Shown here in pieces: positions 47,479 to 49,754 of a stretch of DNA of 64,000 bases. This DNA is from Gudongella oleilytica (GTDB taxonomy: Bacteria; Bacillota; Clostridia; Tissierellales; Tissierellaceae). The notes below the pieces were generated by a model, which searched no databases, was not told the DNA's origin, and saw only the letters and a program-made list of their open reading frames with translations. The position numbers and the translations under genes were made by a program. Within the stretch, counting starts at the first letter, position 1, and each line of letters begins with the position of its first letter. Where the stretch lies: assembly GCF_004101785.1 (NCBI RefSeq), contig NZ_CP035130.1:1922001-1986000 (forward strand). The letters run 5' to 3'.

Positions 47479-48567
47479 TCACTTCTTGTCAATTGCACTT
47501 GCACCCTGACTAAGAGCTATTCTTTTAAATCCATCTGTCATCTCGACTCTGCCATCTGCAAAAACCCATATTGCCTCCAGGCCATCCACTGACTCGACAA
47601 AAGTCCTGCTTTGCTCATAGGGGAGCAGGAATACCTCAGTGGAGTAGAAGTCTGCAAGCCCTGAATCCCCTATGACAACATTTACGGCTCTGTAGTGTGC
47701 GGCAGGCATGAGCGTCTCAGGATCGATGATATGGTGTATTCTTTGATCCCCAACCATATAGTATCGTTGATAATCACCAGAGCTTACTACCGATGCATCG
47801 TTGACGAAGATAGTTTCAAGAGTATTTGAGCCATCTCCAAATACATCCTTATCAGGATTCTGGATGCCTACACCCCATCTGTCCCTCTCACCGTCCAATG
47901 GTTTGCCAACTGCCCGAATATTCCCCCCTGCACTCATTATGAAGGATTCAAAGCCTGCCTCCTTAGCTTCACGGGCCACTATTTCAGCAGCAAAGCCCTT
48001 AGCCACAGCTCCTACGTCCAGAGACATCCTTGGGTCTTCGAGAAACACTGTGCTGTTTTCTGTATCAACTATAACCTTGTTGATGTCCGTATGCTTCCTT
48101 GCCTCCTCAAGTATTTCTATAGGAGGTATTTTTGCCTTGGTTGGATCCGACTCAGCCTCTTCCCTGTATTCAGACCAGATCGACAGCACTGCCCCAAATG
48201 CAATGTTCGTCCTGTGGCTTGTTTTCTCATACATCTCCTTTGAGAAAACTATCAGGTCAAGAAGCTCTTTCTCAACTACGACCGGTTCCTTGCCTGCCAT
48301 ATCGTTAATGGTCTTGATATTATTCAACCCATCGTAGTTGTTGTATTTGTCATACAGCCTGTGGAGCTCAAGCATCCTGTCATGCATCATTGCAGTATAC
48401 TCCATGAACTCTTCCTCCGTCCTGGCATACCCTACTATCTGAGTAATGGTGTCGAAGGAATCAAAGAATGTATCTGTATATTTTTCGTACTCTACTTTTA
48501 GTCCGCAGCCTGACACCACTCCTGACATAAGTGAGAGCAATAGTACTATTATTATTGTTTTTTTCAA
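47479..48567 (-). CDS. apbE: FAD:protein FMN transferase (ApbE), lipoprotein
   Basis: Extracytoplasmic flavin transferase that links FMN covalently to Thr/Ser of target proteins using FAD and Mg2+. Lipoprotein signal with VVSGCG (Cys about residue 21 from the TTG start at 48567, which has GGGGTGATAA upstream). Catalytic domain: FFDSFDTITQIV, VDVGAVAKGFAAEIV-type DVGAVAKGFAAE, FIMSAGGNIRAVGKP, and HHIIDPETLMPA. Sits 80 bases downstream of a lipoprotein with two FMN_bind-like repeats, a likely substrate candidate, although a terminator lies between. Confidence 0.93.
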   Translation of the reverse strand: MKKTIIIVLLLSLMSGVVSGCGLKVEYEKYTDTFFDSFDTITQIVGYARTEEEFMEYTAMMHDRMLELHRLYDKYNNYDGLNNIKTINDMAGKEPVVVEKELLDLIVFSKEMYEKTSHRTNIAFGAVLSIWSEYREEAESDPTKAKIPPIEILEEARKHTDINKVIVDTENSTVFLEDPRMSLDVGAVAKGFAAEIVAREAKEAGFESFIMSAGGNIRAVGKPLDGERDRWGVGIQNPDKDVFGDGSNTLETIFVNDASVVSSGDYQRYYMVGDQRIHHIIDPETLMPAAHYRAVNVVIGDSGLADFYSTEVFLLPYEQSRTFVESVDGLEAIWVFADGRVEMTDGFKRIALSQGASAIDKK

Positions 48568-48611
48568 ATTATCACCCCAGAACATCATACCAAAAACCAC
48601 ATTTTCAGGCA

Positions 48612-48638
48612 AATAAAAACTCCCTCATTTGAGGGAGT
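48612..48638 (-). terminator. intrinsic terminator after the tandem-repeat lipoprotein gene
   Basis: ACTCCCTC-aaat-GAGGGAGT hairpin followed by TTTTATTTG on the reverse strand. apbE would be reached by read-through or a separate promoter. Confidence 0.8.
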
Positions 48639-48647
48639 CGTTAAGAA

Positions 48648-49754
48648 CTATTTTGCTGTTGAAGCTGCCTCTTCTACTACTAACAGGTAATCTTCAACTC
48701 CAACTGTAACTGAGGATACAAGATCTTCTACAGCTGTCTTACCTTCTGCAAGCTCCATTCCCTTGATCTCATCGATTGACTTTCCAGCCATCCAATCAGC
48801 AAGTGCTCTTGCCTGCTCATACCACTCTTTACCTATTGAGGAAGCCTTGATCATACCATATTCTTCCTTAAGCTCGTTCTTTGTTTTGAACTCGCCAGCT
48901 TTATCAACTGAAACTTTTCCTTCTGCATCGAAAGGAATCTTTACCTGTGCAGTATCGATTATTGCTCCTGCTACCTTACCTTCTGCATCAAATGCGGCAG
49001 CTGAAATTATAGTGTCAACCTGAGCAGCAGCTGTAACTGCATTTCCATTTGCATCGATTCCGGCATCCTTGGACTTTGCTATGGATGTTTTGATACCAAG
49101 ACCTACAGTCTCTCCGCCAGCAACTTCGATAGACTCATTCCAAGCCTGCTCAACTGCTGCGATGTAGTCGCCTACAGAAATGGTAACTGATGATACAAGG
49201 TCCTCTTCAGCAGTTTTTCCTTCTGCCATTTTCATACCCTTGATCTCTTCAACTGTCTTGCCTACCATCCAATCTTCAAGAGCTGCTATTTGCTCGAACC
49301 ACTCTTTGCCAATACCTGAAGCCTTAACCATTCCATAGTCTGCTCCAAGGTCTTTTTTGCTCTTTACTTCAGCAGTTTTGTCTGAAGTCACTACCATGTT
49401 CTCATCGAATGCTACCTTAGTTTGAGCAACATCGATGTATACGCTTACAACTTTGCCGTCAGCATCGAAGCCTACCGATGCAATCGTTACATCTGCTTGT
49501 GCTCCTGCATTTACTGCATTCCCGTTAGCATCTGTTCCTTTGTCCGTGGATTTTGCTATGGATATAACATGTCCAAGTCCAAGCTTTACTATGGTTCCCT
49601 CTGCAGCTGGTTCTTCAGCTGGAGTTTCTGCAGGTGTTTCAGCTGGTGTTTCTGCTGGTGTTTCAGCTGGTGCTTCCGGTGCTGCTGGAGTACAACCTGC
49701 AAGCAAGCCAATGCTTAGCATAAGTACTAATAACAATGAAATAATTTTCTTCAT
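48648..49754 (-). CDS. lipoprotein with two tandem FMN_bind-like domains
   Basis: 368-residue lipoprotein: signal MKKIISLLLVLMLSIGLLAG with lipobox Cys21, a Pro/Ala/Glu/Thr linker (four PAET units, 29-44), then two homologous repeats of about 150 residues (roughly 55-205 and 210-365). Each repeat has SIAKS, DANGNAV, VAQTK/TAQVK, KEW(F/Y)EQ and ends in EDLVSSVT(I/V)xV. This ending aligns with the FMN_bind motif D-x-x-S-G-A-T, the site modified by ApbE, but reads SSVT. With apbE next door a covalently flavinylated electron carrier is possible (inference); a non-flavin descendant is the alternative. I do not know a characterised homologue. Confidence 0.75.
   Translation of the reverse strand: MKKIISLLLVLMLSIGLLAGCTPAAPEAPAETPAETPAETPAETPAEEPAAEGTIVKLGLGHVISIAKSTDKGTDANGNAVNAGAQADVTIASVGFDADGKVVSVYIDVAQTKVAFDENMVVTSDKTAEVKSKKDLGADYGMVKASGIGKEWFEQIAALEDWMVGKTVEEIKGMKMAEGKTAEEDLVSSVTISVGDYIAAVEQAWNESIEVAGGETVGLGIKTSIAKSKDAGIDANGNAVTAAAQVDTIISAAAFDAEGKVAGAIIDTAQVKIPFDAEGKVSVDKAGEFKTKNELKEEYGMIKASSIGKEWYEQARALADWMAGKSIDEIKGMELAEGKTAVEDLVSSVTVGVEDYLLVVEEAASTAK
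49623..49670. repeat. four 12-bp tandem repeats encoding PAET
   Basis: Nearly identical 12-base units coding PAETPAETPAETPAET in the lipoprotein linker. Slippage-prone; linker length may vary between strains. Confidence 0.8.

Follow-up and report, generated by a model that had tools for sequence, protein, structure and literature searches.

Ser and Thr are the two residues modified by ApbE, the flavin adenine dinucleotide (FAD):protein flavin mononucleotide (FMN) transferase. Published descriptions give an [S/T]GA[S/T]-like motif for flavinylated domains (PMC11334425, PMC10979944). FMN-bind2 domains are described as ~150-160 amino acids (aa) long, often two or four per protein, with insertions relative to FMN-bind1, and as forming one two-flavin unit (Huang et al., mSystems 2024, PMC11334425; preprint PMC10979944). 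The extracellular electron transfer (EET) locus of Listeria, as described, encodes a lipoprotein with two flavinylated Thr residues, PplA, along with ApbE (FmnB), ndh2, quinone genes and eetB (PF07456) (PMC8906456, PMC9864754, PMC9973259). Here we analyze a lipoprotein gene and the apbE beside it in a stretch of 64,000 nucleotides from Gudongella oleilytica (contig NZ_CP035130.1, positions 1,922,001 to 1,986,000), hereafter the window. The lipoprotein contains two FMN-bind2-like repeats in which the motif reads SSVT. Judged from its sequence and its relatives, we consider with good confidence that it is probably a true substrate of ApbE, carrying FMN at T191 and T350, and an FMN-bind2-type two-flavin electron carrier with a non-canonical motif.

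As an earlier note on this DNA had reported, the two repeats are tandem copies with the same ending. The ~150-aa repeats are identical in 87 of 152 aligned columns, and EDLVSSVT[IV]xV closes both, with SSVT at residues 188-191 and 347-350, making T191 and T350 the candidate flavin acceptors. Among 207 distinct homologous domains, 205 have the whole motif, whose columns (n=205) read D123/E66, L179, variable, S127/A67, S119/G41/L19/T10, V147/C52/T4/M1/A1 and T186/S19. The canonical Dxx[ST]GA[ST] was found in none of these 205 domains, and the window protein has DLVSSVT twice. The GA is replaced throughout, mostly by x-V or x-C, which sets the family apart from FMN-bind2 with its published [S/T]GA[S/T]-like motif (PMC11334425, PMC10979944). 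The acceptor column is the sole Ser/Thr-only column of the domain (205/205). Family proteins show identity to the window protein as low as 28%, and the retention of Thr or Ser in every domain argues that the motif is not due to chance. Conservation also reaches at least 99% at five other positions (Lys, Tyr, Trp, Gln and Gly), a pattern suggesting that a pocket has been retained. In the predicted structure the acceptor Thr lies four residues ahead of the start of the last helix, so helix capping is no obvious reason for its conservation. Flavinylation of the fumarate reductase of Klebsiella pneumoniae is reported to have stayed at ~50% when G-to-A or A-to-V was introduced singly (PMC12052999), so that V at the latter position would be tolerable. 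Literature searches on flavinylation, ApbE and PplA, on FMN-bind2 and on ApbE motif specificity, supplementary tables aside, brought up no paper that names an SSVT-type motif.

The earlier note had also called the repeats FMN_bind-like. Pfam did not bear this out: FMN_bind (PF04205) was not among the matches of the lipoprotein up to E 10, a search in which HMMER filters drop most weak matches, and a search of Pfam plus NCBIfam gave only weak unrelated matches under cut-off, the best at E 0.012. The assignment stands instead on evidence from profiles, bridging sequences and structures. Built from 94 rows, the profile of the two-domain region matched 2kzx_A in the PDB at E 2.2e-6, and a 93-row single-domain profile matched it at E 1.3e-5; both alignments laid SSVT on SGAT. 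2kzx is the sole significant PDB relative by sequence. It is solved and uncharacterised, and it has the EWxEQ helix and the acceptor Thr in common with the family; it differs in that its chain is one domain with a canonical SGAT. Second for the single-domain profile, at a weak E of 0.25, came 8p2b, described as a crystal structure with FMN on Thr (PMC10339131). A phmmer search of the PDB with the trimmed window protein alone gave no match up to E 10.

The family profile also retrieved bridging proteins, whose acceptor-column motifs run toward the canonical one. SGAT is present in L231, L233 and L236, all two-domain proteins, with SGST in one of the domains of L231. The same column holds SGAT in L232, SGAS in L235, TGAT in L237, AGAT in L228 and L234, and TSAT in L227, while L229 and L230, both of which adjoin an apbE, have AGVT. 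When nine bridging proteins were scanned with the FMN_bind model, L229, L230 and L235 scored over the Pfam cut-off and L237 fell just under it (21.5 versus 22 bits); L227, L231, L233, L234 and L236 gave no FMN_bind match below E 0.15. L229 and L230, with their intermediate AGVT, are single-domain lipoproteins, and their apbE genes are less similar to the window enzyme. Together with the 2kzx alignments, these relatives confirm that SSVT lines up with the ApbE motif SGAT. The best reading is that the family is a motif variant of FMN-bind2 rather than of Pfam FMN_bind, an assignment made by the published description and not by sequence comparison. In keeping with that description, the window protein has two ~150-aa domains and the protein at L188 has four. 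This four-domain member (L188:2660-5053, 797 aa) lies beside an ApbE of the L type defined below, with Ndh2 and polyprenyl synthetase upstream, and its domains 1/3 and 2/4 look near-identical. Compared with RnfG/NqrC and FMN-bind1 (3O6U, 8P2A, 8P2B), the family is alike in that FMN-bind structures appear in its fold lists and in having the acceptor Thr just ahead of the last helix, a few residues from it; it differs in that the window protein is without a PF04205 match of its own and has a longer domain and a non-canonical motif.

AlphaFold2 modeled the two-domain region with a predicted local distance difference test (pLDDT) score of 97.2 and a predicted template modeling (pTM) score of 0.93; for the single domain the values were 95.8 and 0.87. 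VIA-align placed 3o6u first for both models (Z 7.2 and 7.9, 106 residues aligned, 3.0 and 3.1 Å, respectively). Further down the single-domain list came RnfG (7zc6_G, 4.2; 9eri_G, 4.0) and NqrC (4xhf_A, 3.6). The absence of 2kzx and 8p2b from the VIA-align lists tests nothing against either. Taken alone, the fold evidence is weak to moderate, and the case for FMN-bind homology is carried by the chain of sequence relatives.

Linkage to apbE was scored in 109 distinct family open reading frames (ORFs) in the fetched loci, of which 9 had too little downstream DNA and were excluded. The next gene downstream on the same strand is apbE in 78 of the 100 evaluable ORFs. ApbE was found in all 75 of the family genomes searched, i.e., 25 genomes plus those of 50 of the 80 loci. 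In a 196-genome class sample, 18/18 family genomes had ApbE versus 124/178 others (p = 0.004, uncorrected for relatedness). Family genomes in that sample were defined by matches under E 1e-30 or 1e-50, which gave the same 18 either way; single-sequence searches matched many signal peptides, and 16 further genomes represent weaker, bridging or chance matches.

Some of the family loci resemble the Listeria locus. In genome G025 the operon order is Ndh2, polyprenyl synthetase, UbiA, NusG_II, PF07456 (EetB), family gene, ApbE. PF07456 is described as the family used for eetB, the FAD-exporting S subunit of an energy-coupling factor (ECF) transporter in the Listeria EET locus (PMC9973259), and we infer that NusG_II is EetA. 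Among the 80 loci, Ndh2 is found in at least 11, polyprenyl synthetase in at least 10, NusG_II in at least 19, EetB in at least 18 and RnfD in at least 12; locus labels rest on similarity to one query each, and the counts are lower bounds because many loci are short. In 9 of the 12 RnfD loci the family gene is preceded, on the same strand, by consecutive rnfC-D-G-E/A-B genes. The Listeria-type EET gene set is present in L182, L092, L093, L097, L102, L104 and L130. Judged by gene order, some relatives of the window protein occupy PplA's place in similar operons. The window locus differs from the Listeria locus: the EET set is not found there, and the lipoprotein-apbE pair stands alone between tctA and ndk. 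The rnf operon of the window genome, with NusG_II and EetB, is elsewhere, at L266.

The adjacent enzyme is an unambiguous ApbE by PF02424 (E 1.1e-59), and it is the sole ApbE found in its genome. The catalytic Ser, His and Asp columns of FmnB, given as Ser257, His273 and Asp301 (PMC8906456) and equated here by alignment, are kept across the aligned ApbEs. The enzyme differs from FmnB (7esa) in reading HHIIDPETLMP where FmnB has HHILDPKTGYP. In a tree of 111 ApbEs, all 73 family-adjacent enzymes group in a single clade with 83 members (support 95/87), the other ten being from family loci or from genomes of the family; in most genomes with two ApbEs, the second lies outside this clade. The tree was drawn mostly or wholly from family genomes, and six of its long-branch rows are of unsure place. 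With five long-branch rows dropped, the residue after Thr in HxxDPxT[LG] is Leu in 72 of 78 clade members (the 73 adjacent enzymes plus 5 further clade rows) and Gly in one, versus Gly in 23/23 other ApbEs. Of five Erysipelotrichia rows treated separately, three have Leu and two have Gln. Gly is also present in FmnB (7esa) and in 4xdt, the best match among solved structures.

These counts raise the idea that L-type ApbEs, which read HxIDPxTLMP in place of HHILDPxTGYP, have a substrate site whose shape was altered in co-evolution with [DE]Lx[SA]x[VC][TS]; this would extend the two-flavin reading. The confinement of the family-adjacent enzymes to one clade and the Leu/Gly split argue for it, but comparison with other ApbEs makes it doubtful. 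Ten low-scoring ApbEs from genomes without this branch have TL in seven, TN in one and TG in one, with one unread; four high-scoring ApbEs from the same comparison have TG in two, the other two being unread. Among the genomes of the low-scoring ApbEs, G117 carries the two-domain SGAT relative L233. Further, several L-type ApbEs lie in rnf or ndh2 loci without a family gene, and lone L-type enzymes presumably serve canonical RnfG and RnfD too, as in the window genome. L117 and L118, with the family motif SSCT, come from genomes in which no ApbE was found other than one of the canonical Gly type, and several long branches of the tree are of unsure place. A dedicated ApbE-substrate pair was rejected as a firm conclusion because L-type ApbEs occur in genomes without this branch, some of them in rnf or ndh2 loci, and it is therefore unproven. 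As far as sequences indicate, the L-type ApbE is the usual companion of the family and not an exclusive one. Tandem apbE genes, L-type beside canonical, were seen in the related genomes of L155, L156, L158 and L193. At L198 (4282-5146) an 860-bp gap with direct repeats separates rnfB from an L-type apbE, and no family-like frame was found in that gap. A wider proposal, somewhat short of an even chance, is that [DE]-L-x-[SA]-x-[VC]-[ST] may be a second ApbE recognition code in a widespread Bacillota family, to which L-type ApbE, its Leu replacing the Gly that follows the catalytic His motif, would be adapted, and that the family may supply some orphan-apbE substrates and replace PplA in Gram-positive electron export.

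The earlier note had offered a flavin-free descendant as its alternative: the FMN-bind2 fold would be kept as a scaffold or ligand-binding module, with the G-A of the motif lost and the apbE adjacency inherited. The lack of a canonical motif in every domain is what this alternative predicts, and PF04205 matched at least once in 70 of the 75 family genomes, giving them another possible ApbE substrate. The remaining five, G012, G025, G247, G277 and G278, lack PF04205, gave no PF03116 or PF10029 match, and have one ApbE each. G025 is the most telling: it is a complete, single-contig genome whose apbE directly adjoins the family gene, and the family profile finds just this one protein in it. A scan of G025 for Dxx[ST]GA[ST] gave 25 DNA matches, 11 of them in frame. 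Ten of these are in ORFs of more than 80 aa. By our reading of the sequences, not by database matches, these ORFs encode transporters, carbohydrate-binding or glycanase/esterase proteins, a repeat protein, a hydrolase and an elongation factor. The last of the 11 falls in an ORF of 34 aa on the strand opposite a long open frame. All look non-redox. The G025 check covered PF04205, PF03116, PF10029, the family profile and the motif; the DUF3570, Flavodoxin_4 and FMN_red families lie outside it. DFG[ST]GA[TS], the same as the ApbE motif, recurs in G025 in apparent carbohydrate-binding modules of exported enzymes (L254, L258-L261), presumably by coincidence. Absence weighs less in G012 (83% complete) and in G247, the genome of a metagenome-assembled genome (MAG) locus. 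Of the five genomes, the family-profile search covered G012 and G025, and the motif scan G025. G277 and G278 are two Erysipelothrix species; the ApbE of G277 is near Ndh2, polyprenyl synthetase and a gene resembling UbiA, and neither ApbE stretch has a family gene. With G025, the acceptor conserved despite divergence, the apbE linkage and the conserved positions of the presumed pocket, a flavin-free descendant is unlikely. The two-flavin carrier with a variant motif, the other possibility raised in the earlier note, is favored because of the linkage (78/100), the invariant Ser/Thr (205/205), the PplA position in EET-type operons, and G025. The weakest alternative is a non-covalent carrier, whose domains would bind free FMN, riboflavin or a quinone while apbE served Rnf or other FMN_bind proteins or hydrolyzed FAD for FMN: relatives do sit beside rnf or ndh2/quinone genes, flavinylated proteins are described as related to non-covalent flavoproteins (PMC11334425), and the literature describes Ftp, an ApbE relative from Treponema pallidum, as an FAD pyrophosphatase (PMC4767422), but with a strict Ser/Thr exactly in the canonical acceptor column and a canonical SGAT in the nearest solved relative, 2kzx, we think it very improbable.

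Several observations weigh against covalent flavinylation of the window lipoprotein. No apbE adjoins 22 of the 100 evaluable homologues, including C1:2050872, the one paralogue in the window genome, which is 69% identical. With one ApbE, the window genome encodes 11 matches to canonical FMN_bind and 2 to NqrB/RnfD, and an ApbE in an rnf operon already has RnfG and RnfD and so does not need the family protein there. The canonical Gly-type enzymes of L117 and L118, given above, belong here as well. Both G and A are replaced in the family, whereas the mutational data of PMC12052999 cover single changes only. Direct comparison of profiles, against eight canonical FMN_bind domains from the window genome, gave a probability of 4.5%, which is not significant, though it placed SSVT on SGAT. 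On the structural side, neither model gave a Foldseek match at E 1e-3, and the lead of 3o6u is a tie by the VIA-align rule (within 1 Z of other folds): 7.2 versus 6.4 for IscU with two domains, and 7.9 versus 7.0 for 8uem_B, a CO dehydrogenase subunit, with one. The earlier note had named a predicted fold unrelated to FMN_bind as grounds for refutation; the comparison did not refute the reading, as an FMN-bind structure came first, though tied with other folds.

On the two-flavin reading, the lipoprotein would be a membrane-anchored extracytoplasmic FMN-bind2-type electron carrier. The neighboring lipoprotein ApbE would split FAD and link one FMN to each domain, at T191 and T350, through a phosphoester bond. 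Both domains would be packed as a single unit with two flavins, and electrons would go outward from a membrane donor. In relatives, where the operon suggests it, this donor may be Ndh2/demethylmenaquinone or Rnf; in the window genome, an Rnf encoded elsewhere seems likeliest. The sequences establish the kinship with FMN-bind proteins, the match of the Thr to canonical acceptors, the constant Ser/Thr, the tie to apbE and the existence of lineages without another recognized substrate; covalent FMN, the redox role and the electron donor are what we infer for the lipoprotein.

Features of the lipoprotein-apbE pair in the window
Feature	Coordinates	Strand	Basis or remarks
Lipoprotein gene, 368 aa	48648..49754	minus	ORF; signal peptide, lipobox-like LLAGC, Ala/Pro/Glu-rich linker, two FMN-bind2-like domains
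Repeat/domain 1, residues 57-207	49134..49586	minus	Repeat alignment
Repeat/domain 2, residues 217-367	48654..49106	minus	Repeat alignment; folded alone as model
First DLVSSVT (variant flavinylation motif), T191 as candidate acceptor	49182..49202	minus	Family column aligned with SGAT
Second DLVSSVT (variant flavinylation motif), T350 as candidate acceptor	48705..48725	minus	Family column aligned with SGAT
Possible attenuator: terminator-like hairpin in the gap before apbE	48618..48639	minus	Hairpin scan
apbE, FAD:protein FMN transferase lipoprotein	47479..48567	minus	PF02424; likely TTG start 48567, mechanical ORF to 48612
ApbE stretch HHIIDPETLMP, L-type signature	47704..47736	minus	Canonical ApbEs: HHILDPxTGYP

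The TTG at 48567 is preceded by GGGGTG and is more likely the apbE start than the mechanical ORF end at 48612; with this start, the 80 bp between the two genes given in the earlier note holds. For the hairpin in this gap (48639-48618), one was found in the scanned stretch versus 2.0 expected from shuffles. In the family, a hairpin lies within 220 nucleotides after the stop codon in 48 of 78 pairs versus 14 of 390 random stretches, the latter including coding DNA. In homologous gaps the hairpin sits before or at apbE. Such a hairpin may hold the enzyme below substrate level, or apbE may have its own promoter. The pair is alone in the window, flanked by a tripartite tricarboxylate transporter (tctA) and by ndk, by its sequence a nucleoside diphosphate kinase-like gene. 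The window genome is 2.36 Mb in one contig and 97.9% complete; its lipoprotein paralogue adjoins a GGDEF/HD-domain signaling protein (L263:8276-10285), not apbE. At L139:1108-6873, two family domains are found at the C-terminus of a 1921-aa ORF that also encodes a dockerin and leucine-rich repeats of the BspA type; they are possibly a two-flavin module on a large surface protein.

The [S/T]GA[S/T] motif is used to recognize flavinylated proteins in genomes, and a family that keeps the acceptor and lacks G-A is missed both by the motif and by the FMN_bind Pfam model. A 2021 survey in eLife reports 670 genomes with apbE and without a known substrate (PMC8238504), and families such as the SSVT lipoproteins are candidates for some of them; the variant site would help to explain why some bacteria retain ApbE without a recognized target. 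If the motif is accepted by ApbE, the rules of flavinylation, and the flavin-tagging methods derived from them, would be wider than thought, and Clostridia with such operons would become candidates for flavin-based extracellular electron transfer.

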